Positions 11,123 through 41,307 of a stretch of 64,000 nucleotides of DNA are shown one piece after another. This DNA is from Actinomycetota bacterium (GTDB lineage Bacteria; Actinomycetota; Thermoleophilia; BMS3ABIN01): contig JACRMB010000002.1 of the NCBI GenBank assembly GCA_016235065.1, positions 186,001-250,000 on the forward strand, read 5' to 3'. Every line of letters begins with the position of its first letter. Positions within the stretch are counted from its first letter, which is position 1. The notes under the pieces are model-generated. The model saw nothing but the letters and a program-made list of their open reading frames with translations, was not told the origin of the DNA and did no database searches. Both the position numbers and the translations under genes were made by a program.

Positions 11123-11149
11123 CAACGCGTGTACAGTTGTAGCTTTAGG

Positions 11150-11223: not shown

Positions 11224-11275
11224 TTACCCGGGGCAGTATATTCAAGCTGCCCGCAGATGCGCCCGGATGCCTAAT

Positions 11276-11915: not shown

Positions 11916-12060
11916 TAAACAGCTTCCTATCTTTTTGTGAGCGTCAGGGAAAGTCGGAGCGGTTCATAAAGACACTTTCTACATCAGATAGCAGTTACTA
12001 TTTCCTGCCAGAAAAAAATATACTGCCCCCACTTTGGTAGGCTTGTCCTTAGGTATAGAC

Positions 12061-12309: not shown

Positions 12310-12418
12310 CACATACCTCCTTCATTATTTTTTTGGGGCGTTCCATATTTTCCCTTTACTGCACAACTCAATTCTTCCAAGTTTAGATATACATGTTGTT
12401 TTTTGTAAGAAAAGACGC

Positions 12419-12721
12419 TCAAAATCTCGGCAAATTTTCAAGATTATCATTCTCTTGTCTATTAGCATCTGTTCGAATATATTTTTTCCCATTTACATTG
12501 ATGATTTCAACATCTGAGCCTTTTTGCCATTGTTTATCTTTCTTTATAATTGTTACGAGTGTTACCCCTGTTTCTAAAGCAGCGATAACGTTCTCTCGTA
12601 GCACATCCTCAGGATCACCAAATGTTTCTCCCAAGTCTTCCCTTACACGCGCCTTGATGATATGAGTTTCAGGTTCATTGTATTGAACATGAGTAATTCC
12701 AAAGTCCGCCCATTTTTCCAT
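12419..12721 (-). CDS. casposon cargo: DUF3892 family protein
   Basis: 100 aa from ATG 12721 (AGAGAGG upstream); the frame extends further but the family begins at EKWADFGITHVQYN. Features are THIIKARVREDLG, VTLVTIIKKDKQWQKG, and the conserved C-terminal block GKKYIRTDANR..NDNLENLP. The function is unknown. DUF3892 and DUF2188 proteins both recur in accessory regions, and finding both here suggests a shared cargo theme. Confidence 0.8.
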   Translation of the reverse strand: MEKWADFGITHVQYNEPETHIIKARVREDLGETFGDPEDVLRENVIAALETGVTLVTIIKKDKQWQKGSDVEIINVNGKKYIRTDANRQENDNLENLPRF

Positions 12722-18918: not shown

Positions 18919-19058
18919 TTCTGCTAATAGTCGCGATACTTCTATTTTGGCTAGGAAAGTACTTGATTACCTGCGGTAGAGAACTTGCCGCCGAAAACCG
19001 GGCGCTTGATTTCTTCTTCCCCGAGTGGTGTGAGAAAATAATGAGTCTTGATTTATGA
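18903..19058 (+). CDS. small single-TM protein (51 aa)
   Basis: MDPCMILLIVAILLFWLGKY, then a polar tail ending CEKIMSLDL. It overlaps the HNH-like gene by 16 bp and the PolB start by 11 bp, filling the gap with no spare bases, which argues that it is translated. A membrane-anchored accessory of the polymerase or HNH protein is possible; the function is unknown. Confidence 0.5.
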   Translation: MDPCMILLIVAILLFWLGKYLITCGRELAAENRALDFFFPEWCEKIMSLDL

Positions 19059-25108: not shown

Positions 25109-25170
25109 TCAGGCTACAAGCCCTTCCCCACGACCTCGTTGAAATAGCCGTTCCAGAGGACGCGCTGGGA
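25109..25170. repeat. 62-bp identical 3'-end segment, copy 1
   Basis: Identical to 28692-28753. It encodes the last residues (ASQRVLWNGYFNEVVGKGL) and stop of two adjacent surface-protein genes, including untranslated bases. This indicates recent duplication or gene conversion. Confidence 0.9.
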
Positions 25171-28100
25171 TGCGAATGCCAGGTAGGGATCTGCTTTGCG
25201 CTGCTTGCCGGTAACGGTATCGATATCCGAGATCCAGCTCTCAACTTGCACCGGACCACCGATTTTTCCGGCAAAACTGGGCGTCTTGCGGTCGAACGGG
25301 GCGATCGTTTCACCCCAGACAGTCTCACCGGCAATCCTGACCTCGGCGTATATCTCGGTATTAGTGGGATTCGCTATCATGACCCAGTTGGCGACTCCTG
25401 GCGCAACCTGGTCATACCAGGTCCAGTTGGCAGTCGTATACTGTAGATCCGAAAACGCTGTACCCGAAAGCTCACCGAAGGACGGCCCCCACAGAACGCG
25501 CTGAGAGGCGATTATATCAGCGTCAGGTTGCGTAGAGCTGGTGTATTTATAGCCGAATGCATACACGGGGCCGCCGATACCGCCCGGTTCCTGGAATGCA
25601 TGCGATGAGTAAGCTCCGATTTGCTGTACATCGACGAATATCGGGTCTTCCGGATTTCCGGCAGCGACGACGGCTTGGACTGGAAATGGATTGGGATTGG
25701 AGATCACTATCCAGTTCGAGCCACCGACGTTGTCATACCAGGTCCACATGTAACTATTATCAATACTCGATGCCGCTATGCCGGGCATCTCGTTGAAAGC
25801 GCCCTTATAAAGGACCCTTTGCGAAGCGATTACTTTCCGGGCATCCGCCGCGGAAGACTCGCTGCCATTCTTTATCCATCCTTTTACCTCTACCGGGCCT
25901 GCCTGCACCCCAGGATATGACGGAGTCCAGGACTCTCCAGGGGCGAGTGTTTTCGTTTCGTTGATGGTCGTGCGGTAGATTCGGACCCTGACGGTCACAT
26001 CTTCGCCGCTTTCCGGGGGATTCGCCACAAGGATCCAGTTCTGCATGCCCGGGGTGGCGGCATCGTATACCGGCCACCAGTAATGAGAATCCAGTTCTTC
26101 ATATGATGTCCCCCAGACCTCCTCGAAAGAGTTGCCGAAGAGGGAACGTTCGCTTACCAGGCCGTCACCATGGTCGGTTACTGCCATGACCGGTCCGCCC
26201 ATCGCCCCCGCCTTATAGACATAGTTCGTCCGCCCCTTGTCGACTGGCACCGGCCCATCGGCGTTCATCTCCTCCATGAGCCGGGTGTCCAGATTCCTCA
26301 GAAATATATCGAAGGTGTTGTCACGCGCAGCCGGCGAGCCGGAGGACGGCTGCGCCATCATGACCCAGGTCTTGCCTGCTTGCGAGTCGTACCAGGGAAA
26401 ATAATAGTGCGCGGGGGCTGTGGTCATCCAGTATTCATTTGATGAATTCTGAGCCCTGTCGCCGACGATTAGATGAGCATAGTGGGTCCCGTCCCTGTTC
26501 ACACTCAGACCGATATGCCCTTCAGTGATCGTCGACTGGCTGGTGACATCCTCGCCATCGATATAAAGATGGATCGTTGTTTCATCTATCCCGGAGGCTG
26601 TATCAGCGAAGTCGGCGCTAATCTCAAATGCATTTGACGTCTGGTCGCTCTGAGGCTGAACGTTGCTGATAATCGGCGCGGTGATATCCATATCAAAAGC
26701 ACCTGTTGATGTGGATGTGTTACCGGCGATATCAAATGCCTCGATCAGAAGGGTGTGGTGACCTTCTGCCAGAACGGACCCCAGGCAGCTGATGTTAGAG
26801 GCGGAGCGCGTGCAGCTTTTCAACGGCAGGTCCGAACCATCCATGTAGATATTGGTTTTGGCCGAGTCGATGCCAGACTGGGCATCGCTCAGGTTGGCGG
26901 TTATCGAGGGATTGTTTTTCGTCCAGCCGGCAGGGCTTGCATTCGTGATAGCGGGATTGGTCAGGTCGACCCCAAATGAGCTATTGATGTGTCCACAGGT
27001 GTCGTCATTCGTGCAATAAGCGGCATCAGCCGTATGCTGGCCCTCTGCCAGGCTTGACACAGCACAACTAAAATTCGAGTCGATAATGGAGCAACCTGTG
27101 AGACCGACGCCGTCCAGCATGACTTGCAGACTGGAAAGATCCAGTCCCGAAGAGTTATTGGCGAGGTTAGCCTCAAATAAAGTATCAGCGCCATTGATCC
27201 ATCCTGTTGGACTGACATTCGTGGCTGCTGGCAATTGAATAGTATTAGCAAGGAAATGATCCCTCGCGTTATTCGTATCAAGTTGAACAAGATTAGATGC
27301 GAAAGACAGAAATACGACATGTCGGCCATCGCCCGCAATGCAGGGATGCTCGCTGGAAAAGTTTGCCTGTCTACCAAAAGTGTCGACCGAGACTCTTGAT
27401 ATCAGGCCATTTGGCAGCTCTTTTACAAAAACATCTGTCCAATTATTTGAATCCGCAAGGACCAGATTGTTTGCATCTGACTCAAAAGTCAGCATGCTGC
27501 CATCTGCTGAAATGGAGGGATTAAAACTGGAGCCGTTACCCCAGACTCCTGCCTGGCTTATAGAGGCAAGCTGGGTTGTACCCGTGGCCATATCTCTGAC
27601 ATAGATATGTGAGATACCGCCCCACACTGTTTGCGCTCGAAAGGCAATGTACCTGGCATCGGCAGAAATGGAGGGATCCGAGGCACTAGTAAAATTACCG
27701 CTGCTGGAAGCCTTTATCGTACTACCCGTTAAAGTATCTTTTACAAAGACCTGATATGTACCGCCTACTCCTCCTGCTAGAGGAGCACTCGAGCAGAAGG
27801 CGACATATCTGCCATCAGATGAAATTGAGGGATTAAATAAGTCTGGGATAGACCAATCTGAATATTGATTTCCCGATGAATCGGATGTAAGCACAACAGT
27901 CGTACCTGAAAATATATTCTTCATAAAGACATCCCCAAATACGTTTGTGTCACTGGATATCAGATTTCCAGCATCGGAAGCAAAGACAACACGGCTACCG
28001 TCGGATGATATCGCGGGGCTGTAACTATTAGAGGTCGCCTGCCGCCCCGACGAATCTGTTGAAACCCTCGTAGTAATACCCGTCTGGGTATCTTTTACAA

Positions 28101-28542
28101 AGATATCTGTTCTATTGTTCGTATCTCCGTAGACTAAGTTGGCTGCATCTGACGAGAAGGCCACATAGCGGCCATCAGATGATATGGAAGGGTCGTAACT
28201 ATCGTCGTAACCATCGTTGCCGGCTGAATCGGTGGAGGCTGAGGTGATGGCCCCTGTCTCGGTATCCTTGATGAATACATCGACAGTGCCGCCGCGGTTT
28301 CCGGGAACCAGGTCGGAGGCGAGACTGTCAAATGCCACATACCGGCCGCCTGTCGATATTGACGGAATGGTGGACGTCCGGCCACTTGGTTCACTCGAAG
28401 ACTGATTCCCGGCTGAGTCCGTCGAGATCCTCACGATCGCCTTGTGCTCGGTATTCGTCGCATAACCGGTAGACATCATGGACACGACAGTGACGCAGGC
28501 CAGTATGGTCAGAATGATGACGATTACGTGCCTAGCCTTCAA
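25114..28542 (-). CDS. secreted beta-propeller/Ig-like/ASQRV-repeat surface protein
   Basis: 1142 aa. A signal peptide (VIVIILTILACVTVVSMMS) is followed at ~45-440 by a TolB/WD40-like beta-propeller with repeating PSISSDGRYVAFSSDA / DIFVKDTQTG blades. Residues ~445-710 hold three Ig-like repeats (VSPTGWINGADTLFEANL; MDGSDLPL). From ~715 come four ASQRV repeats, e.g. YMWTWYDNVGGSNWIVISNP ... GGPV ... ASQRVL ... FNE, the last being the C-terminus itself (NEVVGKGL). There is no LPXTG or membrane anchor. It is the first of three same-strand paralogs, each with its own promoter. An adhesive or structural surface role is inferred. Confidence 0.85.
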   Translation of the reverse strand: MKARHVIVIILTILACVTVVSMMSTGYATNTEHKAIVRISTDSAGNQSSSEPSGRTSTIPSISTGGRYVAFDSLASDLVPGNRGGTVDVFIKDTETGAITSASTDSAGNDGYDDSYDPSISSDGRYVAFSSDAANLVYGDTNNRTDIFVKDTQTGITTRVSTDSSGRQATSNSYSPAISSDGSRVVFASDAGNLISSDTNVFGDVFMKNIFSGTTVVLTSDSSGNQYSDWSIPDLFNPSISSDGRYVAFCSSAPLAGGVGGTYQVFVKDTLTGSTIKASSSGNFTSASDPSISADARYIAFRAQTVWGGISHIYVRDMATGTTQLASISQAGVWGNGSSFNPSISADGSMLTFESDANNLVLADSNNWTDVFVKELPNGLISRVSVDTFGRQANFSSEHPCIAGDGRHVVFLSFASNLVQLDTNNARDHFLANTIQLPAATNVSPTGWINGADTLFEANLANNSSGLDLSSLQVMLDGVGLTGCSIIDSNFSCAVSSLAEGQHTADAAYCTNDDTCGHINSSFGVDLTNPAITNASPAGWTKNNPSITANLSDAQSGIDSAKTNIYMDGSDLPLKSCTRSASNISCLGSVLAEGHHTLLIEAFDIAGNTSTSTGAFDMDITAPIISNVQPQSDQTSNAFEISADFADTASGIDETTIHLYIDGEDVTSQSTITEGHIGLSVNRDGTHYAHLIVGDRAQNSSNEYWMTTAPAHYYFPWYDSQAGKTWVMMAQPSSGSPAARDNTFDIFLRNLDTRLMEEMNADGPVPVDKGRTNYVYKAGAMGGPVMAVTDHGDGLVSERSLFGNSFEEVWGTSYEELDSHYWWPVYDAATPGMQNWILVANPPESGEDVTVRVRIYRTTINETKTLAPGESWTPSYPGVQAGPVEVKGWIKNGSESSAADARKVIASQRVLYKGAFNEMPGIAASSIDNSYMWTWYDNVGGSNWIVISNPNPFPVQAVVAAGNPEDPIFVDVQQIGAYSSHAFQEPGGIGGPVYAFGYKYTSSTQPDADIIASQRVLWGPSFGELSGTAFSDLQYTTANWTWYDQVAPGVANWVMIANPTNTEIYAEVRIAGETVWGETIAPFDRKTPSFAGKIGGPVQVESWISDIDTVTGKQRKADPYLAFASQRVLWNGYFNEVVGKGL

Positions 28543-28579
28543 GCACAGACTCCTTTTTAATCAAGAAATAAGGGAACTA

Positions 28580-28608
28580 ATAGTACCCAAGAAGTTAGAT
28601 TATGTCAA
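28580..28608 (-). promoter_or_regulatory. promoter of the 1142-aa surface protein gene
   Basis: TTGACA (28608-28603), 17-bp spacer, TACTAT (28585-28580), 38 bp before the ATG; AAAAAGGAG lies just upstream of the start. Confidence 0.82.
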
Positions 28609-28691
28609 CGACTTTTTGCCGGGAATCGTTGCCGGGGAAGAGAATCTCGCAGGACTGGCCGGCACTCGCATGGGCCACTCCCGCGTCCGTT

Positions 28692-28753
28692 TCAGGCTAC
28701 AAGCCCTTCCCCACGACCTCGTTGAAATAGCCGTTCCAGAGGACGCGCTGGGA
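28692..28753. repeat. 62-bp identical 3'-end segment, copy 2
   Basis: Identical to 25109-25170. It covers the 3' end of the 28697-30118 gene and four bases beyond. Confidence 0.9.
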
Positions 28754-30118
28754 GGCCATTACCGGAATCGGTGTTGCGGTTCCCTGGATCCAGGCATTCA
28801 CCTGCAGGGGACCGCCGATCTCTCCGGGGAACACAGGCGTAGCGTTAGCGCCCACAGCAAGATTCCCGCTGGCTCCAGGAGTCGTCGCCGGGTTGATACC
28901 AGGGCCTGTGATCTCATAATGGATAGGCACTGACTGCACGTTGGAGACGAGCACCCAGTTGAGCGATCCGGGTGTCTGCATGTCATACCAGGTCCAGTTG
29001 GCCGTCGGCTGCAGGTCGGATAATGGCGTGCCTGCGATCTCACCATATGAGCGGTTATAGATGATGATCTGGGAAGCATAGATATTAGCCGGGCTGTTGC
29101 AGGGAACAGAAGTATTGAGGCAGCCTTCGATTTTGACCGGACCATTCACCAGCGGGGTGCTGCTCACCCAGCCGCCTGTCTTCCCGGCATAGAGCGCAGC
29201 GGGAGCCTCCTGAAGAGCTCCACCAATATAAACGGAAACGTACACCGTGAACGCGTTGGGATTGCCGACTCCAATCAGGTTGAAGCTGTTGACGCTGTCG
29301 TACCACGTCCAATAGTACGATGACGTAAGTTTTGACGCCGGTATACCGGCCATCTCGTTGAAGGCGCCTCCCAGCAGTACACGTTCCGAAGCGATGACCT
29401 TCCGGGCATCAGCTGGATTGCCGGGCGAGCCGCCGACTCTGTAGGCTTTGATCACGACCGGGCCGCCACCGTATCCGGGATAGGTCGGCGTCCAGCTTTC
29501 ACCTGGATGGATCAGGTGCTGCTGAACAAGGATGTCGGGCGGATTCGGATCTCCATCATTGATGGGCTCGGTGACTATGCTGAGATCGACATAGACATCC
29601 TCGCCGTTCTCGAGGGGATTCGACACCAGCACCCAGGTGTTCATGAAGGTGCATTCATAGAGCGGCCAATAGTAATGAGAGTCGAGCTCGGCATAAGGTG
29701 TCGCCCATACTTCCTCGAAAGAGTTGCCGAACAGCGACCGTTCGCTGACCAGGGCCGCGCCGTTATGTGAACTCACCGTCAGAGGCCCGCCAATCCGTCC
29801 AGTGAATCTCTGGAACTCTGAACTGCCGCCCAGGACCGTGAAATCCGTACTCAGCGCCTCGCTGTTCAGATATGTGTCGAAGGCCGCGTCGGCGCCGCCG
29901 GCAGGGTTGGATGTGAGAACCCAGGAGAGGCCGTACTGGTCGTCATACCACGGGAAATAATAATTCGTGCCGCCGGGATAAGCGCTCAGGGCGGTGCTTC
30001 CGGATGAGAAGACGATCGCTGCCGCCAGCATCAAGGCTAGGGGAAGAAAAACGGCGGTGACCGTGATCACCCTCGTCGCGTTGTACCGCAAAATGCGCCT
30101 TCTGTTATCTGCGTTCAT
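28697..30118 (-). CDS. secreted protein made only of ASQRV repeats
   Basis: 473 aa from ATG 30118 (GGGAGGA upstream). A signal peptide (VTVFLPLALMLAAAIVF) leads directly into four repeats of ~100-115 aa: YYFPWYDDQYGLSWVLTSNP, YYWPLYECTFMNTWVLVSNP, YYWTWYDSVNSFNLIGVGNP, and WTWYDMQTPGSLNWVLVSN. Each closes with GGP.V ... ASQRVL-like and F.E(V/I).G. It therefore defines the repeat as a free-standing unit. It carries the same C-terminus, NEVVGKGL, as the neighbour at 25114. A promoter-like TTGACC...TACCAT lies upstream. The function is unknown. Confidence 0.82.
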   Translation of the reverse strand: MNADNRRRILRYNATRVITVTAVFLPLALMLAAAIVFSSGSTALSAYPGGTNYYFPWYDDQYGLSWVLTSNPAGGADAAFDTYLNSEALSTDFTVLGGSSEFQRFTGRIGGPLTVSSHNGAALVSERSLFGNSFEEVWATPYAELDSHYYWPLYECTFMNTWVLVSNPLENGEDVYVDLSIVTEPINDGDPNPPDILVQQHLIHPGESWTPTYPGYGGGPVVIKAYRVGGSPGNPADARKVIASERVLLGGAFNEMAGIPASKLTSSYYWTWYDSVNSFNLIGVGNPNAFTVYVSVYIGGALQEAPAALYAGKTGGWVSSTPLVNGPVKIEGCLNTSVPCNSPANIYASQIIIYNRSYGEIAGTPLSDLQPTANWTWYDMQTPGSLNWVLVSNVQSVPIHYEITGPGINPATTPGASGNLAVGANATPVFPGEIGGPLQVNAWIQGTATPIPVMASQRVLWNGYFNEVVGKGL

Positions 30119-30270
30119 TTTTCCTCCCACCCGGCCCGTTTAACTCACAGTAATATAAGCAAAAAGATGGTATATCAACTATTGCGGAGCGGTCAAGAGG
30201 TTGTTATTCGGAGCGATGCTACCCTGAATCGATGTTCCCGCTATCGATGCAGAATTACTGGTCCCTGAAT

Positions 30271-30295
30271 AAAAGGGCGCCCCGGAGGGCGCCCT
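30271..30295 (-). terminator. terminator after the 811-aa surface protein gene
   Basis: AGGGCGCCC...GGGCGCCCT hairpin followed on the minus strand by TTTTATTC. Confidence 0.8.
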
Positions 30296-30334
30296 GTGAT
30301 CCTGCAGTTTTGAAGCGATGCTTCATGCCATCAA

Positions 30335-32770
30335 TTACTTCACCGGCGGCCGGCCTACCACCTCGTTGAAGCTGTCGAGGTAGATAACGCGCTGGCTGAT
30401 GATGAGCTTCTGGCCAGGCGTACAGGTGGTGCAGACTGCCTTCACCGGTCCGCCTATGACGCCAGTGAAAAACGGCGTGGCTATTCCGCCGCTCTTGAAC
30501 GCCCAGAAACCATTCGGCCCTCCGCCAGACATGGCCATCGGCGAGCCGCTTGAGCCGATATATACCTGCATATAGGCGTCGGCTGCGGCATCCTGGTTTC
30601 CGATGAGCACATAGTCGCCCTTCATCTCGGGAGACTGCCAGTCGTACCAGGTGAACACAGCGCTGTCGCCCATGTCATTGGGGCTCAGGCCCTGGACTTC
30701 CTCGAATGAGTTCTTGTAGATAACCCGCTGGCTGGCCATGATCTTCGAACCGTATACCTCACAGCTGGCACATGAGACTTTCACCGGGCCGTCCATCACA
30801 CCCTGGAACAACGGCGTCACGCGGTCTCCTGGCGGGATGATCCACTGTCCGCCGTCAGGACCTGCCATCTTGGTTCCGCCTATCTCGATATCGACGTAGG
30901 CGTTAACCGTGGCGCTCTCGTTGCTCACCAGGATGTAGTTGCCGTTCATGCCAGGTGTCTGCCAGTCATACCAGGTGAAATAGTACTCGTCATCCAGCTC
31001 GCTGACCGGCGTCCCCATTACTTCTGAGAAGGCATCCTTGTAGAGCACCCGCTGGCTGACGATCAGCTTCTCGCCGCCGCGGCTCTTGACCTTGACCGGT
31101 CCGTCCATCAGGTTGTTGAACTGGGACATGCCGGTACCCGGTGTGTCGATGTCGCCTGGAGCGATGGTTCCCGTATAAAGCGGAGTCGTGCTGGCGCCCA
31201 CGTATACATCAACAACGGCGCTGCTGGTCGGATCGACATTGCCGATCAGGATCCAGTTGCCGGACATGTTGTTCGCGGGCTTGGAATCGTACCAGGTGAA
31301 GCGGTATTCGGAGTCCAGCTCGTTCTCGCGCACTGCTGGGACCTCATTGAAGGATTCCTTGTAGAGCACCCGCTGGCTCACGAGCAGCTCGTTGCCGTTG
31401 GTGGAGACCACTCTCACCGGCCCGGTCATCTTGTTGGCGAAAGCCGGTTCGGCTCTGCCGCCGCCGGCGATGTTCCAGTGGCCGCCACTATCCGCCTCGG
31501 GATTAATCATCTGCTCGCTGCCGATGAACACGTCGACCACTGCTTCGGTGGATTCCTGGTTGCTGATCATGATCCAGTTGCCCTTCATGCCGTTCGCGGT
31601 CATGGAGTCATACCAGGGCGCGTAATAACTGATGGGGGTCGAATAACGGAAGCTCGATGTCTTCGTCAGTGACTGTTTGCCTGTCTTGTCCTTCACATAT
31701 ACGGAGACGCTATGGGTGCCCAGTGACAGGCCACCAGCCTGATAAGAGAGGCCGTATTGGCCCAGCGCCGCGCTACCGGTCACATCGACCCCGTCCAGCT
31801 CCAGGTGGGCCGTGTACTGGTCCACTCCGGCGCCCATGTCCAGCCAGGCGATGTCGATCAGGGGGCTGCCGGTGCCGACGCGCTCGCCGTCGGCAGGAGA
31901 GATCTCGCCGATTACCGGCGGCTGGGTGTCAACAGTGAACGAGCAGGTGGACGTAGCGGGATTGCCGCCATTGTCCTTGATGTGGAGCGTCGCCGTGTGG
32001 ACGCCGTCACCAAGCCCGGTGGGCGTATAAACAGCTTCAGCGGCGCTGGTATAAACTGCTCCGGCCGCCGTCGGGATGCCATCTATATACATCTTCACGG
32101 AAGCATTGTCGATGCCGGACGCGTCACTGTAGCCGAAGGATAGAGTCGGCGAGTCGGTCTCCACAAGGGTGCCGCAGATCGCCGGGGAACTGATGACCGG
32201 CGCGGTGTTATCGATGAAGAAGGTCCACGAGAAAGCGGTCTGATTCGCAGTGGGGTTCGCAGCGCTCCAGGCGCCGTCCTTGACCGTGATGGTGACGGTG
32301 TGTTCGCCATCGGTCATTGGAACATCTGCGGTCTCATAGATGTCGCATCTCCTCGGTCCCCACACGGTCACGGTCTCGTGGTTCCAGGAAATACCGGGAT
32401 TAGGGCCACTGGCCGTGAAAGTGACTCCGGGCATATTGCTGCCGCACTTGGTCAGCTCGTAACCGTCATAGAACATCTTGGGATACTCGTAAGGATAGAT
32501 GCCGTCCGGATCGGAAAAATTGACGCTGATCGGCTCCATGTTGTTATTTGTGGAGGGGAAAGGTTCGTTGTTCGTAAACACGGTCGGACCGGTATCAGCC
32601 CCGGCAATGATCAGTGAATTCCCCGCGGGAAGCAAACTGTTAAGGAGTTGGGAGGTATACGGCCCTGAACCGTCCTGGGCCAGGCCCAGCGAGGGTGCCA
32701 TCAGCATCAACGCGAGGATAACGGCTGGAACAATCATTAGCGCAAGGCGCGCCGGACGTCTCGATTTCAT
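30335..32770 (-). CDS. secreted Ig-like/ASQRV-repeat surface protein
   Basis: 811 aa from ATG 32770, chosen because AAGGAG lies seven bases upstream and it gives a clean signal peptide (ALMIVPAVILALMLMAPSLG, cleavage near LAQ). Residues ~60-400 hold Ig-like repeats (PVISSPAICGTLVETDSP; DGERVGTGSPLIDIAW). From ~405 come four ASQRV repeats in a variant with a longer insert: YYAPWYDSMTANGMKGNW, YRFTWYDSKPANNMSGNW, YYFTWYDWQTPGMNGNY, VFTWYDWQSPEMKGDY. It ends NEVVGRPPVK. This variant matches the 1786-aa protein more than the two upstream paralogs, so the cluster holds two repeat subfamilies. Confidence 0.84.
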   Translation of the reverse strand: MKSRRPARLALMIVPAVILALMLMAPSLGLAQDGSGPYTSQLLNSLLPAGNSLIIAGADTGPTVFTNNEPFPSTNNNMEPISVNFSDPDGIYPYEYPKMFYDGYELTKCGSNMPGVTFTASGPNPGISWNHETVTVWGPRRCDIYETADVPMTDGEHTVTITVKDGAWSAANPTANQTAFSWTFFIDNTAPVISSPAICGTLVETDSPTLSFGYSDASGIDNASVKMYIDGIPTAAGAVYTSAAEAVYTPTGLGDGVHTATLHIKDNGGNPATSTCSFTVDTQPPVIGEISPADGERVGTGSPLIDIAWLDMGAGVDQYTAHLELDGVDVTGSAALGQYGLSYQAGGLSLGTHSVSVYVKDKTGKQSLTKTSSFRYSTPISYYAPWYDSMTANGMKGNWIMISNQESTEAVVDVFIGSEQMINPEADSGGHWNIAGGGRAEPAFANKMTGPVRVVSTNGNELLVSQRVLYKESFNEVPAVRENELDSEYRFTWYDSKPANNMSGNWILIGNVDPTSSAVVDVYVGASTTPLYTGTIAPGDIDTPGTGMSQFNNLMDGPVKVKSRGGEKLIVSQRVLYKDAFSEVMGTPVSELDDEYYFTWYDWQTPGMNGNYILVSNESATVNAYVDIEIGGTKMAGPDGGQWIIPPGDRVTPLFQGVMDGPVKVSCASCEVYGSKIMASQRVIYKNSFEEVQGLSPNDMGDSAVFTWYDWQSPEMKGDYVLIGNQDAAADAYMQVYIGSSGSPMAMSGGGPNGFWAFKSGGIATPFFTGVIGGPVKAVCTTCTPGQKLIISQRVIYLDSFNEVVGRPPVK

Positions 32771-32915
32771 GCTGTACTCCTTGTGAGTTTTCGCTTGCCC
32801 CCGATGCCCAGGGCACAGAAGACCGTCTACCAAACAGTCACTGGCCTGGGAATTAAGCGTGGCGCAGCGAGCGCCATGCCGGGTACCGCTTCTCAACCGT
32901 GAAAAACGGTAATCA

Positions 32916-32945
32916 ATGATACATCCGGGGGGTATATTCGGTCAA
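32916..32945 (-). promoter_or_regulatory. promoter of the 811-aa surface protein gene
   Basis: TTGACC (32945-32940), 18-bp spacer, TATCAT (32921-32916). The leader to the ATG is ~140 bases and includes a CCCAGG...CCTGGG pairing. The mobile cassette's target duplication starts only eight bases upstream of the -35 box. Confidence 0.72.
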
Positions 32946-32952
32946 GAATCCG

Positions 32953-32960
32953 GGGAGATG
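32953..32960. repeat. 8-bp target duplication of the cassette, left
   Basis: GGGAGATG, repeated at 35655-35662 immediately outside the right inverted end. Confidence 0.85.
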
Positions 32961-32976
32961 GGTAGTGGGTCAGTTT
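32961..32976 (+). repeat. cassette left inverted end
   Basis: GGTAGTGGGTCAGTTT, exact inverted match to 35639-35654. Confidence 0.9.
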
Positions 32977-33093
32977 GAAAATTATCGGGAAAAATAATTT
33001 GCACCCTGTGAAAAGATCCGTTAAATTATCTCTTGTCTATCAATCAGGTGAATTACCCTGATGAATGGATAAATATATAAAAAGGGCTCATTC

Positions 33094-33113
33094 ACCTCCT
33101 GTTTGTAGGAGGT
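33094..33113 (+). promoter_or_regulatory. hairpin sequestering the Shine-Dalgarno of the 23-aa ORF
   Basis: ACCTCCT-GTTTGT-AGGAGGT: a perfect 7-bp stem whose 3' arm is the entire Shine-Dalgarno. A TATAAA box with TTACCC 17 bp upstream precedes it. Such occlusion is typical of type I toxin mRNAs. Confidence 0.75.
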
Positions 33114-33116
33114 CAC

Positions 33117-33188
33117 ATGATCTCGTTTCACGATCTTGAAGTGCTTTTGCTGCTTCTGATCGCCTTGATAAAAGCCATCAAGGCATAA
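33117..33188 (+). CDS. 23-aa hydrophobic peptide, candidate type I toxin
   Basis: MISFHDLEVLLLLLIALIKA plus IKA. AGGAGGT lies three bases before the ATG and is locked in a hairpin; a strong terminator begins two bases after the stop. One short hydrophobic helix with a lysine-containing end, tight SD control and a compact transcript are the hallmarks of small membrane-acting toxins (Fst/Ldr/TxpA-like in style; no homology claimed). No antisense antitoxin promoter can be named with confidence. It could instead be a leader peptide. Confidence 0.55.
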   Translation: MISFHDLEVLLLLLIALIKAIKA

Positions 33189-33190
33189 AT

Positions 33191-33228
33191 AAAAACGAGC
33201 GGACTGGTTTTTTTATCCGCTCGTTTTT
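33191..33228. terminator. bidirectional terminator after the 23-aa ORF
   Basis: AAAAACGAGCGGA / TCCGCTCGTTTTT, a 13-bp stem around a 12-base T-rich loop. Confidence 0.88.
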
Positions 33229-33277
33229 ATTTCCATTACTTTCGATTAAAAATATCGCGCTGTGGTATCAGTAGGGT

Positions 33278-33535
33278 ATGCCTGACCGCTCAAGAAAGAA
33301 AAAGAAAGCCCGCGATCTCAATATCCTGGCCTCTCAGATCGTATCTGAGGCCACCAAAGAGGAGAAGCCACCTTATGAACCGGAGGCCGAGAAGAATCCG
33401 GCTGTTGTTGAGCTAGGCCGTAAGGGTGGACTTAAAGGTGGCAAGGCCCGGGCAGAGAAATTGTCTCCTGAACGTCGCCGCGAGATTGCCAAAAAAGCCG
33501 CTCAGGCACGGTGGAAATCCAAAAGTAAGGAATAG
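33278..33535 (+). CDS. KGG-type basic nucleic-acid-binding protein
   Basis: 85 aa, highly charged. The C-terminal half is VVELGRKGGLKGGKARAEKL, then SPERRREIAKKAAQARWK, a common bacterial and plasmid motif resembling the KGG (GsiB-type) and histone H1-like repeats. The N-terminal half is Lys/Glu-rich (RSRKKKKARD). A nucleoid or RNA-binding role is inferred. It is the first protein-sized gene of the cassette; ~80 bp separate it from the next gene, so it may be transcribed with it. Confidence 0.72.
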   Translation: MPDRSRKKKKARDLNILASQIVSEATKEEKPPYEPEAEKNPAVVELGRKGGLKGGKARAEKLSPERRREIAKKAAQARWKSKSKE

Positions 33536-33616
33536 AAAAGGAATATTATTCTTGACTTATGCCAATGCTCTGAGATATGCTCCTAGCACTATAATCGACA
33601 TTAGGAGTGGGCACTA

Positions 33617-34234
33617 ATGACACGTAGTAAAGAAGAAGCAGCGCAGGACTTAGAACCTTTCTTACCTCGAATCTATCAGTGCGTTGACGAAGCACTCAGC
33701 GATTACTTGAAACAGGATTATGCCTCGCTTAGGAACCGCCTAACGAAAAGAAGTGATTCCTCAATCCGTAACGACATGATTGTGGGCAAGCTTTTGGCTG
33801 AATTTGAAAGTGATGCTGAGATCACCTTTATAAAAAAATATGGGCGCTACTCGATGCTCGTAAGTAATTACCAGATTCGTGTGAAGAAGTTCGACAAAAA
33901 TTTTCTCCCCAACAACATCTACACCCAAGCTGTCTTAGATTTCCTGACTCAACAGAACCCCTCAAGTTTCCCAGGGATGGAACCCCCTACAAATCTTGAT
34001 CTCGGATACATGTTCAACAACGATATTGAAACTGACTATGGTGTATATTTTCGCTGCCCGGATGGATTAAAGAGTTGTATCTGGCATATGGAGATATTCG
34101 GCAGCGAAGCAGAAGTCGTTCGCCTCAATAATTTACAGACTGAAACCGATCTTTCCACCGAGCGTTTAGTCCAGCCCAAGCGCGAAGTAATTGAAAAAGA
34201 TAAGGAGAAGCCTGATGACCCGATGGCCAACTAA
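33617..34234 (+). CDS. unknown protein paired with XRE-ImmA
   Basis: 205 aa, unrecognised; RBS TAGGAGTGGG. The N-terminus is alpha-helical and acidic (EEAAQDLEPFLPRIYQCVDE), the middle mixed (AEITFIKKYGRYSMLVSNYQ), the C-terminus Lys/Glu-rich. Its last 20 bp overlap the start of the ImmA/IrrE gene, so the two are a co-translated pair. In such pairs the metallopeptidase-regulator commonly controls or cleaves its partner, so this may be the effector or the substrate. No catalytic motif is visible. Confidence 0.6.
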   Translation: MTRSKEEAAQDLEPFLPRIYQCVDEALSDYLKQDYASLRNRLTKRSDSSIRNDMIVGKLLAEFESDAEITFIKKYGRYSMLVSNYQIRVKKFDKNFLPNNIYTQAVLDFLTQQNPSSFPGMEPPTNLDLGYMFNNDIETDYGVYFRCPDGLKSCIWHMEIFGSEAEVVRLNNLQTETDLSTERLVQPKREVIEKDKEKPDDPMAN

Positions 34235-35306
34235 GGATTCACCTCCGGCCAATCATGAAATGGTGACTCTTGCAAGGGAGTCGCGCGGCTTAACACAAAA
34301 AGAAGCAGCTAATCGACTTGGCATTTCCCAAGCGCGACTTTCAAAAACTGAAGGCGGCCTTGCGTCTATTGATGAAGAATTACTTGGAAAATTATCGAAA
34401 GTATTCCAGTATCCACCTGAATTTTTCTCAGTCAAAAATGCTGTATTCGGGCCAGGCATCAGCGAATTTTTCCATAGAAAGCTCCAGGCTACGCCTGTCC
34501 GTAAATTGCGCAAACTTCATGCTGAGATCAGTATCAAGATATTCAACATACAGCGGCTTCTAAGAGCAGTTGACATCGTAGCTGATGATATTCCACGTTT
34601 TGACTTGGAGGAAGATTGGTCAGTTAAAGAAGCTGCGCGTGCAGTACGTGCAAGGTGGAATCTACCTCCTGGGCCAATTCAGAATGTGGTTAAGTCGATT
34701 GAAACGGCTGGGGGAATTGTAATTCCGTGTAAATTCGAGTGTTCCGTTGACGCAATAAGTAGATATATACCTGGGCTTCCTCGGCTTTTTTTCGTTGATG
34801 ATAGTCTCCCGGGTGATCGCCTTAGAATGACGCTTGCACATGAACTTGGACATGCTGTGATGCATCAGGTGCCTAACCCCGAGATGGAAGACCAGGCCTT
34901 TCAATTTGCTGCAGAGTTTTTAATGCCTGAAAGAGAAATATGTACTCAATTTGGCGATCAAGTGAACTTGGCAAAACTTGGGACAATGAAGCAAGTTTGG
35001 AAAGTGTCAATGGCAGCGCTACTAAAGTGCGCCGGTGACCTTGGAAAAATTACACCCCGCATGCAGCGACATTTGTGGGCGCAAATGAGCAAAGCTGGAT
35101 ATAGAACAAGAGAGCCTGCCGATTTTGATATCCCCAAAGAAGAACCTCAACTGCTCAAACAAATCATTGAGATCCACCAAACAGACCTTGGATATGGGCT
35201 ATCTGAGCTAAGCAAACTGCTGGTTCTTTTAGAAGACGAGGCTAGAAACACTTTTAATATCGATCGTACAAAAGCCGAATCAAAACTTCGCCTGCGTGCA
35301 GTCTAA
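34215..35306 (+). CDS. XRE HTH plus ImmA/IrrE metallopeptidase
   Basis: 363 aa from ATG 34215 (AAGGAG upstream). Residues ~12-70 form an XRE HTH (LARESRGLTQKEAANRLGIS; QARLSKTEGG). Residues ~160-270 are the ImmA/IrrE domain with zinc motif HELGH (MTLAHELGHAVMHQ) and the downstream AAEFLMPE glutamate. This class regulates mobile elements, stress responses or toxin-like partners by cleaving or sequestering repressors. It is co-translated with the 205-aa protein. Confidence 0.88.
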   Translation: MTRWPTKDSPPANHEMVTLARESRGLTQKEAANRLGISQARLSKTEGGLASIDEELLGKLSKVFQYPPEFFSVKNAVFGPGISEFFHRKLQATPVRKLRKLHAEISIKIFNIQRLLRAVDIVADDIPRFDLEEDWSVKEAARAVRARWNLPPGPIQNVVKSIETAGGIVIPCKFECSVDAISRYIPGLPRLFFVDDSLPGDRLRMTLAHELGHAVMHQVPNPEMEDQAFQFAAEFLMPEREICTQFGDQVNLAKLGTMKQVWKVSMAALLKCAGDLGKITPRMQRHLWAQMSKAGYRTREPADFDIPKEEPQLLKQIIEIHQTDLGYGLSELSKLLVLLEDEARNTFNIDRTKAESKLRLRAV

Positions 35307-35333
35307 ACTGACCAAAATGCTTGACTATGCTAA

Positions 35334-35639
35334 ACCGCTCTCGGAATAGAGAAAGAAAGAATTTGGGGCCATCCGGACCCGGCGCATATCTCCACTTCCT
35401 ATGTCGAGCGGCAGAATCTTACAATACGGATGGGAATGCGGCGATTCACTAGACTGACTAACGGCTTTTCAAAGAAGGTCGAGAACCTTGCTCATGCCGT
35501 CAGCCTGTATTTCATATACTACAATTTCGCGCGGCCTCACAAGACTCTGGCGAATCCGTACCCCCGGACTCCCGCTATGACTGCCGGGATAACTGTTCAC
35601 GTTTGGACACTTGAAGAAATCGCGGGACTGCCAGATTGA
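35334..35639 (+). pseudogene. transposase remnant (C-terminal part of a DDE transposase)
   Basis: The frame opens after TAA at 35331 with no start and encodes PDPAHISTSYVERQN, TRLTNGFSKKVENLAHAVSL, YYNFARPHKTL, then HVWTLEEIAGLPD. This is the end of the catalytic domain (E of the DDE triad near VERQN) of a widespread IS1-like or integrase-type transposase. The upstream two-thirds are missing and replaced by cargo. The stop lies at the first base of the right inverted end. Confidence 0.82.
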
Positions 35640-35654
35640 AACTGACCCACTACC
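35639..35654 (-). repeat. cassette right inverted end
   Basis: AAACTGACCCACTACC, exact inverse of 32961-32976. Confidence 0.9.
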
Positions 35655-35662
35655 GGGAGATG
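35655..35662. repeat. 8-bp target duplication of the cassette, right
   Basis: GGGAGATG, matching 32953-32960. Confidence 0.85.
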
Positions 35663-35946: not shown

Positions 35947-38900
35947 CTACCCGCGCGGCCTGCCTACGACCTCGTTGAAGCTGTCCTTGTAAAGGACGCG
36001 CTGGCTGATGATGAGCTTGTCGCCACCGGCGCAGCTCGAACAGGTGGCCCTCACGGGACCGTCCATCAGACCCGCGAAGCTCGGCGTCACGGTAGCATTG
36101 GCGCTCACCGGGAAGTTGGCTGTACCAGTCCCGACGTTCACCATCGGAGTGGCGGCTATGGTTATGCCCATATCCTTGCCCGAGGCGTTCTGATTGCCTA
36201 TCAGGATCCAGTCACCGTTCATGCCGGCTGACTGCCAGTCGTACCAGTTGAAGTCGGCGTTGGTTCCCATCTGGGCCGGTGTCAGGCCCTGCACTTCCTC
36301 GAAGCTGGTCTTGTAGATCACGCGTTGGCTGGTCATAAGCGGCTGGCCGTTGGTAGAGCGGACTCTCACCGGACCCTCGGTGCGCACGGTATCGGAGATC
36401 CAGACTGCGGCCTCGCCCGGCAACACGCCGGTTATGGTTGCAACTGGCGTGGCGCCGGCGCCGACGTTGTTAAGGTAGATCTCGACGTCCGTGGTGGTGC
36501 TGCCCATGTTGGAAGCCATCACCCAGTCGCCACCCATCCCGTGGGCTGGATCACTGTCATACCAGGTGAAGAAGCCCTCGTCCTGCAGGGACGATTTCTC
36601 GGAGGCAAGCACTTCGTTGAAGCTGTTCCTGTAGATGACCCGCTGGCTGACAACGAGCTTCTGGCCGCTCCGGCTGATTACCTGCACAGGGCCATCAGTG
36701 ATGGGAGCTGGCAAAGTTGGAGCCTGCCAGAACTGGTATCCGCCGGCGGGGACAGTCAGTGTTGTCATCTGAACGCCGCCGATATAGACGTCGGCTGTCG
36801 CAGAAGCCGCCGTGTCGATGTTGCCGACCATGATCCAGTTGCCGCCCATGCTATGAGCGGGATCATTGTCGTACCAGGTGAAGTCGAACTCGGTATCATC
36901 TATGTCCGCATCGCTGGCGGCCATGATCTCGTTGAAGCTGTCCTTGTAGAGGACGCGCTGGCTAACCAGCAGGGTCTGGCCGTTGGTCGAAACCACACGT
37001 ACCGGGCCGTTGGCCAGCGGTGTCGGCGAGAACCAGGAGACCTGGCTGTTGGGAGCGATCGCATTGCCGCCGGCTACATCGTACTGGGCTACTGGTGTGG
37101 CCGCGTCGCTGATGTCGCCTACATAGATCTTGACCTCCGCGGCGACGCCGCCCAGGTTGGAGATCATCAGCCAGTCACCCTTCATGTTGTTGGCTGCCAT
37201 GTTGTCATACCACGGGAAGTAGTAGTTGAGCTGCGTCAGCGTGAAGGAACCGCTTGAACTGCCGGTGTTGCCCGCCATGTCGTCGACGCTGACTGTGTAG
37301 TTGTGAGCTCCACTCGTGACCGCGGCCGTGCAGCTGATGCCGCTCGTGGTAGCCAGGCATCCGGCGACCGGATTGCCATCAAGGGTTACCACCGCTGTCG
37401 CCGCATCGACGCCAGTGCCGCCGGTATCGGCGAAGTCGGCCGTGATCGTCGGTGACGATGTGGTGATATCACCGCTTGGCGAGAGGTTGGTCACGCCCGG
37501 CGCGAGCGTATCCACTGTGAAGGAACCGTTGCCAGTCCCGGGATTGGTTGCATTGTCGTTCAGGGTTATGCCGATCGTGTGCGCGCCTTCGGCCAGGCCT
37601 GTCGCCGGGCAGGAGGCGGTGGTAGCGGTGATTGTGCAGTCAGCCATCGGCGAGCCATCCAGATTCACTACGACGGAAGCAGCGTTCACGCCGTTGGCGT
37701 CGCTGAGGTCCGCCGTCACTGTAGTCGTTCCGGAGCTGATGATGCCACTCGGCAGGATGCTGGTGGCCGACGGCGCCGTCGTGTCGACGGTGAAGCTGCT
37801 GCTGCTGGAGCCGGGATTGCCGGCATTGTCATTCACGGTAACCGTATAGTTATGCAGTCCGTCAGCCAGGCCCGATGTCGGGCAGCTGATGCCGGTGCCG
37901 GTAGCCGTGCAGCCCGCAAGCGAGCTTCCGTCTACGGAGATCTGCGCCGTTGCAGAGTTGATGCCTGTGCCACCGTCAGTGTAGTCGCCGCTGACGGTCG
38001 GTGAGGCGCTGGCTACCAGGCTGACAGGCGACAGGTTAGTCACGCTCGGCATGACGGTATCAACTGTGAAGCTGCCGAGGCCTGTCTGGGTATTGCCGAC
38101 ATTGTCTTTGACAATGATCTCGATGTTGTGGACACCCTCAGCCAGCCCGGACTTCGGGCAGCTGATGCCGGCGCCGGTAACCGTACAGCCGGACATGATC
38201 ATTGAGCCATCCACATGGACCATCGCCGTGGTGGAGTCGATGCCGCTGCCGGCGTCGCTGTAGTCGCCGCTGATCGTGGTCGAGTTGACCGTGATGTTGC
38301 CGCTCGGCAGGATGTTGGTAGCTGACGGAGCGGTCGTGTCAATGTTGATGCTCGTCGTGCCGCTGCCGGGATGGTTAAGCGAGTATTCAGCAGTGAACTC
38401 GACAGTGTGCGAACCAGCCGAACGGGCGGATCCCGGCGTGCAGGAAATTACAGTATTGCTGAGGGCGATCTCGCCGCCGCTGCAGGAATACTCATTGCCG
38501 GTCCCCTTGTCGAATATCACCGTGCCGGCATTGATGTTCTGGCCGCCGGGGACACCGCTGATCGTGGCGCTGACTGTCGGCGTCGTATCCGCGGTCCAGT
38601 TTCCCGGCTGGAAGCCGAGTGAATCCGGCGTCACTGTCGGAGCTGCCGTATCGACTGAGAATGAGCCGCTGCCGCTGCCGGTGTTGCCGGCTACGTCATC
38701 GACGGTCACGGCGATTGCGTGGGCTCCATCGGCCAGACCTGTGGCGGGACAGCTGACGCTGCCTGCGCCGACAGTACAACCGGTCATCGCCACTGTATCC
38801 AGGGTGACGGCGACTGTCGCCTGATCGATCCCGGAAGTAAGGTCGCTGTAATCAGCGGTGACTGTCGTACTGCTGGTGCCTATGGCGCCACTCGGCTGGA

Positions 38901-41307
38901 TGTTGCTGACCGTCGGCGCGGCTGAATCTACGCTGAAGCTGCCGCCACCGGTGTTCTGATTGCCTGCCAGGTCATATGCGGTCACCAGGATCGTATGGGC
39001 TCCCTGGGCGAAGTTGGCTGCACTGGTGTTACAGCTGATCGAAGTAGTCGTGACCGTGCAGCCTCCCAATGGGGTGCCATCCACCGCGATCGAACCAGTG
39101 GCTGTGTTTATGCCGCTGCCGGCGTCGCTCAGGGCTGCCTGAACCGTCGCGGGGCTCGTGGTCGTGATCCAGCCGGAGGGCAGGACGCTGCCGATGCCCG
39201 GAAGCGAAGTGTCAACAGTGAACGAACCGCTGCCGGTTCCGATGTTTCCAGCGACGTCGGTCAACTTGATGATCGCGTTCCTGGCGCCATCGGCAACCGC
39301 AGGTGTCACGTCACAGGTTACAGTGCCGCTGGCAGCCACGCAGGCGTACGGGAACGAGCTACCGCCATCCAGGCTCAAAGTCGCGCTGGCAATACCAGAC
39401 GACGGAGCCGGATCTGAATAGGTTCCAGTAACTGTCGGGGTATTGTCGTTGATGTTGCCGCTGGGGCCGCTGTAGGTGACCGCCGGCGATGTGGCATCCG
39501 CCACTGTGAAGTAGGTGCGGTTTATCGTCTCGTTGCCCACCATGTCCGAAACATATATGTCGAGCGGGTGAGTTCCGAGGGTCAGGTCGCCAGCGGTCGC
39601 GTTACACTCCACATGAGAAGCCGTCTGGATGGGGCAATCCATCAGCATGTTGCTGACGTCCAGGTGGACCATCACAGAGGCAATGTCGACGCCGCTGCCA
39701 GTATCTGAATAATCCGCGGTTATGGTCAGGGATGTGATGTCGTTCAGGGTCGCGCCGTCGGCGGGATATATATTGCTCACCGTCGGAAAGGTCGAGTCAG
39801 GAGGTGCGAGAGTCGTGAAGTTGCCTTCGACGCTGACGGTGCCATTGGCGTAACCGTCATACGAGGTCACCCTGTAGTAGTAGGTGGTGCTCGGACTGAG
39901 GCCGGTCAGGCTCGCCGCGTTGCCGACAGCGACATCCTTGGTCGCGTTGAGCACGGTGTCATTGACTACACCGGTGTATGGTCCACCAGAGGTAGTACCG
40001 TATTCGACCTTCAGGGTCGCCGGCTCAGCAGCTGTGCGCTCGATGGCGGCGCTGCTGGTGGTCACGCTGGTGTGGCCTACGCTGGTGACCGACGGACCTG
40101 TCGTGTCAACAGGACCTGGGGCAGCGAAGGCAGCGATTGTCTGCGTCGGCAGGTTATCGCCGAGGACTACCTGCTGCTCGCCCTGAGTGCTATCCCAGCG
40201 GACGATACCGCCGTTGATGCTTCCAGCAGTGGCAGTCAGGTCATATCCGAGCATCTTGAGGCCGATAGCTGCATCAGCGCCGTGCTGTGTGTGGCTGACC
40301 AGTGCGGTCGACTTGGTCGGATCCACGTTGGCCAGGCCGCCGAGGCTGAACAGCGTGCTGATCGGCACCTGGATGTTGACGCCAGTGGACGATACGGTGT
40401 TTATCGTACCGGGCCTGATGTCTACCGTCTGCGCTACGCCTGCGATGGCGGACATGGTGGTCGTGCCGTTACCGACGTTGCCGAGGGTGGCTGCTATGGC
40501 CCAGTTGGCCTGGCAGCGGACCAGATCATAGTCGGTTGCCGAAGCATCACAGTTGGCTACGGTAGCAGGAGCAGCGAAGCCTCCAGCTGACGACTCAGGT
40601 ACTGCGACCGGATTGGCGCCGCTTACTGCTGTGGCGAAGTTACGCCAGCCGTTACGCGCATACTTGAGCGTATAGACATTCGGTGTCAGCGTGGTATCGC
40701 TCGACAGGGCGCCAGGGACCTGGGCGATGATGCCGAAGCCACCCGTGGTCGGCCCGGCGGTCTGGGCGCTGACGCAGTAGTCGACTATGTCAGTGGAGAA
40801 GCCGGCAGCCTTGTGGTTGTCGACGATCGTCCTGATCGCTGAGATCGATGAATCCGCGAAGCAGCTATTATCGACATTCCAGTTGCAACGGAATTCCGTA
40901 CCCGGGATCACGTCGGTACGCGTCATCAGGTTGTCGATGAGCACCGGGCGGTTTGCCATGTCGTCACCTTCATCAGCTACACCGGTGACGGTCGTGGGGC
41001 CAGGGACGGTGCCGCTGGTCGCCGGGGACGCATACTTGGGAGAGATGTCGTTATCGGAGTCCAGCCTGCCCACCAGATCCACCTTGGTGATGCGGAAGCC
41101 GAGCTCACCTGCCTCTCCTGCATTGTACTGCGGACCGCCGAAGTACTCATTGACGTAGCGGCGGACCGTTTCCCACTGGCTGACATTCAGAGCATTTGCC
41201 TGCGTCGCCACCGACAAATAAACCGGCATAAGGGCCGCGATCAGCAGCAGTACCGGAAATATTGTGAATGTCGCCCGCCTGAACTGTCTCTTCTGCCTTT
41301 TACTCAT
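35947..41307 (-). CDS. giant secreted protein: rhodanese-like, FN3, Ig-like and ASQRV repeats
   Basis: 1786 aa. A signal peptide (FTIFPVLLLIAALMPVYL) is followed at ~45-235 by a rhodanese-like region: IDNLMTRTDVIPG, then DYCVSAQTAG at the expected active-site cysteine, then VYTLKYARNGWRNF. Next is an FN3-like domain (~400-495, GLSPSTTYYYRVTSYDGYANG), about nine ~90-aa Ig-like repeats (ILPSGNITVNSTTISGDYSD; GLAEGVHNIEIIVKDNVGNT) and four ASQRV repeats (YYFPWYDNMAANNMKGDW ... NEVVGRPRG). It belongs to the same repeat subfamily as the 811-aa protein. A stalk-like cell-surface protein is inferred; a sulfurtransferase-like head would be unusual outside the cell. Confidence 0.85.
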   Translation of the reverse strand: MSKRQKRQFRRATFTIFPVLLLIAALMPVYLSVATQANALNVSQWETVRRYVNEYFGGPQYNAGEAGELGFRITKVDLVGRLDSDNDISPKYASPATSGTVPGPTTVTGVADEGDDMANRPVLIDNLMTRTDVIPGTEFRCNWNVDNSCFADSSISAIRTIVDNHKAAGFSTDIVDYCVSAQTAGPTTGGFGIIAQVPGALSSDTTLTPNVYTLKYARNGWRNFATAVSGANPVAVPESSAGGFAAPATVANCDASATDYDLVRCQANWAIAATLGNVGNGTTTMSAIAGVAQTVDIRPGTINTVSSTGVNIQVPISTLFSLGGLANVDPTKSTALVSHTQHGADAAIGLKMLGYDLTATAGSINGGIVRWDSTQGEQQVVLGDNLPTQTIAAFAAPGPVDTTGPSVTSVGHTSVTTSSAAIERTAAEPATLKVEYGTTSGGPYTGVVNDTVLNATKDVAVGNAASLTGLSPSTTYYYRVTSYDGYANGTVSVEGNFTTLAPPDSTFPTVSNIYPADGATLNDITSLTITADYSDTGSGVDIASVMVHLDVSNMLMDCPIQTASHVECNATAGDLTLGTHPLDIYVSDMVGNETINRTYFTVADATSPAVTYSGPSGNINDNTPTVTGTYSDPAPSSGIASATLSLDGGSSFPYACVAASGTVTCDVTPAVADGARNAIIKLTDVAGNIGTGSGSFTVDTSLPGIGSVLPSGWITTTSPATVQAALSDAGSGINTATGSIAVDGTPLGGCTVTTTSISCNTSAANFAQGAHTILVTAYDLAGNQNTGGGSFSVDSAAPTVSNIQPSGAIGTSSTTVTADYSDLTSGIDQATVAVTLDTVAMTGCTVGAGSVSCPATGLADGAHAIAVTVDDVAGNTGSGSGSFSVDTAAPTVTPDSLGFQPGNWTADTTPTVSATISGVPGGQNINAGTVIFDKGTGNEYSCSGGEIALSNTVISCTPGSARSAGSHTVEFTAEYSLNHPGSGTTSINIDTTAPSATNILPSGNITVNSTTISGDYSDAGSGIDSTTAMVHVDGSMIMSGCTVTGAGISCPKSGLAEGVHNIEIIVKDNVGNTQTGLGSFTVDTVMPSVTNLSPVSLVASASPTVSGDYTDGGTGINSATAQISVDGSSLAGCTATGTGISCPTSGLADGLHNYTVTVNDNAGNPGSSSSSFTVDTTAPSATSILPSGIISSGTTTVTADLSDANGVNAASVVVNLDGSPMADCTITATTASCPATGLAEGAHTIGITLNDNATNPGTGNGSFTVDTLAPGVTNLSPSGDITTSSPTITADFADTGGTGVDAATAVVTLDGNPVAGCLATTSGISCTAAVTSGAHNYTVSVDDMAGNTGSSSGSFTLTQLNYYFPWYDNMAANNMKGDWLMISNLGGVAAEVKIYVGDISDAATPVAQYDVAGGNAIAPNSQVSWFSPTPLANGPVRVVSTNGQTLLVSQRVLYKDSFNEIMAASDADIDDTEFDFTWYDNDPAHSMGGNWIMVGNIDTAASATADVYIGGVQMTTLTVPAGGYQFWQAPTLPAPITDGPVQVISRSGQKLVVSQRVIYRNSFNEVLASEKSSLQDEGFFTWYDSDPAHGMGGDWVMASNMGSTTTDVEIYLNNVGAGATPVATITGVLPGEAAVWISDTVRTEGPVRVRSTNGQPLMTSQRVIYKTSFEEVQGLTPAQMGTNADFNWYDWQSAGMNGDWILIGNQNASGKDMGITIAATPMVNVGTGTANFPVSANATVTPSFAGLMDGPVRATCSSCAGGDKLIISQRVLYKDSFNEVVGRPRG

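Follow-up and report, generated by a model that had tools for sequence, protein, structure and literature searches.

A hydrophobic 23-codon frame behind a sequestered Shine–Dalgarno sequence in a cargo transposon: a possible type I-like toxin mRNA

Introduction

Could a 23-codon hydrophobic reading frame, carried near one end of a transposon and preceded by a ribosome-binding site that is folded into a perfect hairpin, be the gene of a type I toxin? The question is raised by a locus within a 64,000-nucleotide stretch of bacterial DNA, which we call the window. The type I toxins in the literature are short, hydrophobic helices that usually carry positive charge at the C-terminal end, and their mRNAs are silenced by internal structure (PMC8309996, PMC11228461); as of 2021, no membrane-type members had been described outside Proteobacteria and Firmicutes (PMC8309996). 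A preliminary description had read the locus as a candidate toxin of this kind: a compact, self-silenced transcript, carried in a mobile cassette.

Results

The small unit, on the plus strand at 33094–33232, opens with an SD-sequestering hairpin (ACCTCCTGTTTGTAGGAGGT, ACCTCCT-GTTTGT-AGGAGGT, 33094–33113) that is evident from direct reading, from comparison with shuffled sequences and from folding. The bases CAC (33114–33116) separate this hairpin from an ATG at 33117–33119, and the AGGAGG core of the 7-base Shine–Dalgarno (SD) sequence lies 4 nucleotides before that start codon. The 23-codon frame, read directly as MISFHDLEVLLLLLIALIKAIKA (33117–33188, with its TAA at 33186–33188), has no in-frame ATG, GTG or TTG 5′ of this ATG. 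From its sequence, the 23-residue peptide is computed to form a single hydrophobic helix (mean hydropathy 2.7 in the best stretch of 15 residues, GRAVY 1.74), and its C-terminal end bears two lysines. An intrinsic terminator follows at 33187–33232, identified by complementarity and by folding. Its arms (33187–33203 and 33216–33232) form a perfect stem of 17 bp, 100% complementary, and overlap the stop codon of the frame, so that nothing else is encoded by the unit. A simple terminator scan missed this stem, as its 12-nucleotide loop exceeds the limit of the scan. With an A-rich 5′ arm and a U-rich 3′ arm, the terminator could work on the minus strand too. Direct reading and complementarity bear out each of the parts first described, namely the hairpin, the 3-base gap to the ATG, the hydrophobic frame and the terminator.

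The predicted transcript reaches further than these parts. A candidate promoter, TTGCAC-17-TAAATT, recognized by its match to consensus, lies on the plus strand at 32999–33027; its −35 element can alternatively be read as TTTGCA from 32998, which makes the spacer 18 bases long. This site has the top promoter-like score in 32940–33420 with both strands considered, a score that is expected by chance about 0.8–1.6 times in a stretch of that size. We regard it as a lead, from which the RNA would likely start at about 33034, end at about 33232 and measure about 199 nucleotides. The predicted start falls at the base of a 5′ stem-loop that appears in folds of the transcript at about 33033–33072. The compact transcription unit of the preliminary description is thus retained, but the interval assigned to it, 33094–33228, is too narrow, since the promoter puts the start at about 33034 and adds the 5′ hairpin.

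Within the predicted ensemble, every base of the SD sequence has a probability below 0.06 of being unpaired (<6%), and the ATG is mostly paired in the full transcript, in agreement with the occluded ribosome site proposed at the outset. The region 33030–33232 folds at −76.5 kcal/mol compared with −41.8 ± 4.0 kcal/mol for shuffled sequences, a z of −8.7 that is partly due to the terminator. The coding stretch alone folds at a z of about −3 to −4, and 3% of its synonymous recodings fold equally well. The hairpin pattern had no match in 100 dinucleotide-shuffled windows, and a hairpin of this pattern with a suitably spaced ATG behind it is present three times among 399 genomes of the class, the source genome included. 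When the coding stretch was shuffled, the frame stayed open in 36% of cases, and 0.2% of these open frames equalled the observed one in hydrophobicity; among 464 ATG-initiated frames of 18–40 codons in the window, two reach a GRAVY of at least 1.7, one of them being the 23-codon frame. Hairpin, hydrophobic frame and folding each exceed chance, with the caveat that the locus was picked by a reader from 64 kb.

Folding on this scale raises the alternative that structure is itself the product. The transcript could be a structured non-coding RNA, a chain of five hairpins with a terminator that acts on a target or just persists as a stable small RNA, in which case the 23-codon frame would be incidental. 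Nearly the whole transcript is predicted to be paired, the coding stretch included, and a strong, fully hidden SD sequence could arise as the by-product of a stem. However, a perfect 7-base SD sequence suitably spaced from an ATG, a frame that ends exactly at the terminator and hydrophobicity with a P of about 0.002 are unlikely to occur together, and Rfam returned only noise over the unit at both gathering and relaxed thresholds. We consider a non-coding RNA unlikely.

If the unit is instead a translated mRNA, its start site must open at some point. The leader sequence AGGUGAAU (33046–33053) is perfectly complementary to AUUCACCU (33090–33097), which overlaps the anti-SD arm; this 8-nucleotide complementarity has a P of about 0.02 relative to shuffled leaders. 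When the pairing is forced, the predicted fold loses about 6 kcal/mol and the SD sequence pairs with a downstream GAUCUC, so refolding alone does not free it. Two other modes of control were considered and dropped: a T4-type start inside the hairpin, as no promoter-like site fits, and attenuator control of downstream genes, as the folds never show the 17-bp stem in an alternative, anti-terminator pairing.

The mobile cassette named in the preliminary description is real. It occupies 32961–35654 and is delimited by 19-bp terminal repeats and an 8-bp target duplication, GGGAGATG, read directly at 32953–32960 on the left and 35655–35662 on the right. The left terminal inverted repeat (GGTAGTGGGTCAGTTTGAA, 32961–32979, plus strand) is 19 nucleotides long and 95% complementary to the right one (35636–35654, minus strand), after which the right target duplication comes next. 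G+C content is about 45% within the cassette versus mostly 54–63% outside. Terminal inverted repeats, target duplication and a transposase, here a 69-aa remnant, are features of an IS-type cargo transposon. The remnant (35430–35639, plus strand) matches the C terminus of an intact 294-aa transposase in a second genome, G015, and that of its relative in G001; it also weakly matches rve_3/IS481 models. The cassette is inserted between two genes for surface-type proteins, on the promoter side of one at 30335, and large proteins of this type, encoded at 25114–32896 and 35947–41307 (minus strand) and at 58412–62134 (plus strand), share a repeated domain and motifs such as ASQRVLWNGYFNEVVGKGL.

The cargo genes all lie on the plus strand, and the chief cargo is a Rosmer-type antitoxin gene together with an unassigned partner of 205 aa. 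The first, at 33278–33535, encodes an 85-aa basic protein with relatives in eight other genomes, where it stands in varied contexts. The third (34215–35306) encodes an XRE-HTH protein with an ImmA/IrrE protease domain that resembles the antitoxins RmrA and Spr1629 (RipB): it matches the PADLOC RmrA model of RosmerTA at 178 bits as well as Peptidase_M78 and HTH_3, and it also matches the Spr1629 family with a score below that model's cut-off. Between them, at 33617–34234, is the gene of the 205-aa protein, placed in the operon where a Rosmer-type toxin would be expected. This protein has no family match and a relative only in G015, 57% identical; it may be a divergent toxin of the Rosmer type. 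Complementarity between the mRNAs of the 23-codon frame and the RmrA-like gene (33139–33157 with 34301–34319, 79%) was attributed to chance, given the size of the region.

G015, which belongs to the same family, carries an intact 3.0-kb relative of the cassette (L019, reverse complement of 9686–12681), with the same terminal repeats, its own 8-bp duplication (GATTATTA), the full 294-aa transposase and all three cargo proteins (the 85-aa, 205-aa and XRE-ImmA proteins), at a DNA identity of about 72%. The small unit is absent from this element, which is the one further complete copy that turned up. Measured from the outer end of the repeat and with the first codons of the first gene included, G015 has 78 bases versus 329 here, and only about 47 bases lie there between terminal repeat and first gene. 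The preliminary description had named absence of the frame from other copies of the cassette as one of several results that would count against its claim; the whole copy in G015 lacks the frame. The same terminal repeat is present in six other genomes (G015 included), with no unit at the ends read. In one genome, G037, two ends of the transposon family stand back to back (GTAGTGGGTCAGTTTGAATTCAAACTGACCCACTAC) at about 1481–1537 of L028/L032, with no cargo between them.

This comparison bears on two further explanations. SD-locking hairpins shield the termini of IS10, IS50 and IS200, and the unit might likewise protect the transposon end: the hairpin would silence translation of host read-through transcripts, the terminator would protect the cargo operon, and the frame would be the residue of a former start region. 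The unit does sit directly inside the left terminal repeat, with a two-way terminator ahead of the cargo genes. Yet the intact G015 copy does without it, it has a promoter-like site of its own, and its hairpin locks the 23-codon frame rather than the transposase or a cargo gene, which leaves a shield quite improbable. Alternatively, the cassette is broken and the unit a decayed or non-functional fragment left within it. Such a leftover would be in keeping with a unit that is found once, is absent from the intact copy and shares its cassette with a transposase cut to 69 aa. A 9-base match between the G015 junction and the terminator arm (TTTTATCCG) weakly suggests that the unit was lost in G015 rather than gained here, and such a past loss would mean that it may be dispensable. 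But promoter, SD sequence, frame and terminator are all unblemished here, whereas random decay would be expected to break the perfect 17-bp stem or the frame; we therefore hold a leftover to be doubtful.

Searches for relatives of the unit were negative by DNA in 149 related genomes, by peptide in 376 genomes of the phylum (next best E 0.7) and, among phages and plasmids, by both. A covariance model of its structure, which has little power as it was built from one sequence, found no relative in 299 genomes of the class. Several matches were set aside: a 22-base DNA match in G080 and a 22-base match on a Priestia plasmid, inside a thiolase gene, were attributed to chance, and the two matches of the covariance model elsewhere in the class, at 42 and 23 bits and in one genome each, are GC-rich generic hairpins with neither frame nor SD sequence. 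The peptide was matched by no Pfam or NCBIfam model at E ≤10 and by none of PHROGs at E ≤1; models of this sort frequently miss peptides so short. Since no relatives were found, conservation neither supports nor refutes coding or base pairing.

The proposal of a type I toxin fares unevenly against these results: the unit, the occlusion, the helix and the cassette all speak for it, but no toxin-family match and no antisense candidate were found. In a DNA search of the whole genome (98.9% complete, E ≤1) the unit matches only itself and its own terminator arms, and minus-strand promoter-like sites able to cover the frame have background scores, in scans that short or imperfect pairing and non-consensus promoters may escape. 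A better minus-strand promoter-like site, at 33052–33025, is predicted to start near 33018 and to run away from the unit, and the bidirectional-looking terminator would stop antisense RNA that enters from the right.

An SD-locking hairpin is also a device that is not specific to toxins. At least 120 viral matches were listed with the same hairpin before an ATG, and they include several T4-type lysozyme genes and many other ordinary genes. Two short hydrophobic viral frames among the matches listed (L150, L070) were rejected because no strong terminator follows the stop codon, and two narrower viral pattern scans had no match. Scanning a genome collection for ACCTCCT-N6-AGGAGGT-N3-ATG returned 23 stretches, none of which precedes a similar short hydrophobic frame; one, from Paenibacillus, has a 42-aa frame that bears no resemblance to the 23-aa one. 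Nine of the 23 precede a single conserved family of membrane-protein genes in Fulvivirga and its relatives (MMIPI...; L154, L156, L159, L161, L164, L169–L171 and L175), each with a perfect hairpin ahead, for which translational control and an overlapping terminator are candidate roles.

Discussion

We tentatively favour the reading that the unit is a small mRNA that silences itself and encodes a membrane peptide, working like the mRNA of a type I toxin, and we put its likelihood a little short of even. In support, the frame chosen by the SD sequence is open and hydrophobic, the best promoter-like site of the region is aimed at the unit, and a toxin–antitoxin-like operon adjoins it on the transposon. 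Weighing against it are the lack of relatives, of an antitoxin candidate and of a toxin family, the G015 copy that does without the unit, and the presence of such hairpins before ordinary genes.

The cassette, the elements of the sequence and the failure to detect relatives are observations; for this mRNA we infer transcription, translation, membrane insertion, toxicity and a step of unlocking, as follows. The transposon would carry, in its left end, a small independent gene from which an mRNA of about 200 nucleotides (about 33034–33232) is made, encoding a 23-residue membrane-inserting peptide. The mRNA would be translationally silent from birth because the hairpin locks its SD sequence and, for the larger part of the predicted ensemble, its start codon as well; we propose that this silencing operates as for the membrane-acting type I toxins TisB, ZorO and TimP. 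A later unlocking step would be needed, which might be cleavage, an unfolding factor or capture of the anti-SD arm by the leader sequence AGGUGAAU. Once freed for translation, the peptide would insert into the host's own membrane and damage it.

Two hallmarks of type I systems are predicted here: a small hydrophobic peptide of fewer than 60 residues, and a cis structure over the ribosome site, the latter being a common rather than universal criterion. With TisB/IstR-1, ZorO/OrzO, DinQ/AgrB and ShoB/OhsC, the unit shares a hydrophobic single-helix peptide, a structured leader, a hidden ribosome site and a compact arrangement (PMC8309996, PMC11228461). These trans-acting enterobacterial systems each have a neighbouring antitoxin RNA, whereas none is detectable at the 23-codon frame, and the 23-aa peptide has no sequence or family match. 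In length, those toxins are similar to it. As in TimP/TimR, a hairpin hides the SD sequence, and the leader contains a stem-loop for which refolding is conceivable (PMC11228461). However, TimP keeps its leader structure conserved among homologues and has an sRNA that is known, whereas the small unit is one sequence whose alternative pairing keeps the SD sequence paired.

Outside the type I systems, the same ACCTCCT-loop-AGGAGGT stands directly before the ATG of phage genes that include the T4-type lysozyme gene e. T4 gene e escapes this hairpin through transcripts that start inside it. Unlike the 23-codon frame, the genes behind the phage hairpins are full length, and no promoter-like site would start transcription inside the hairpin of the unit. 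A likeness to Rosmer (RmrT/RmrA; Spr1630/Spr1629 = RipAB) is seen in the cargo, where an RmrA-like XRE-ImmA gene has a partner gene ahead of it, but it concerns the neighbouring operon and not the 23-codon frame, and the 205-aa partner is without a family match. Spr1630/Spr1629 (RipAB) is a Rosmer toxin–antitoxin pair for which the sliding clamp has been proposed as the target (PMC12795458).

Membership of the unit in a type I toxin–antitoxin system is unproven. Filing it as such a system would be unjustified, because its toxicity is only predicted, no antitoxin was found and the G015 copy lacks the unit. A bolder version of our reading, in which the unit is the founding member of a group of ultra-short membrane toxins that are silenced by mRNA structure without an antisense antitoxin, and serves as an extra addiction or defence gene beside a Rosmer-type system, strikes us as very unlikely.

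A type I-like unit would be of a kind that is already known, here represented by one sequence only. Even so, should the locus prove to be a type I-like toxin gene, and provided that its host lies outside the two phyla from which membrane-acting type I toxins had been reported by 2021 (PMC8309996), the described range of these toxins would widen. Such a gene would also exemplify, in minimal form, control that relies on mRNA folding and nothing else, on a transposon that stacks two kinds of toxin-like genes. If it is not a toxin, the locus illustrates how easily a self-complementary SD hairpin and a short hydrophobic frame suggest one.

Elsewhere in the window, a 513-aa Cas1 protein (Pfam, 150 bits) is encoded on the minus strand at 15349–16890, and a 1,063-aa protein with weak similarity to family-B DNA polymerases and a DTDS motif nearby on the plus strand at 19048–22239; the two are reminiscent of a casposon-like pair. 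The window also contains a SAM riboswitch (RF00162, 83.9 bits) on the minus strand at 10999–11122.
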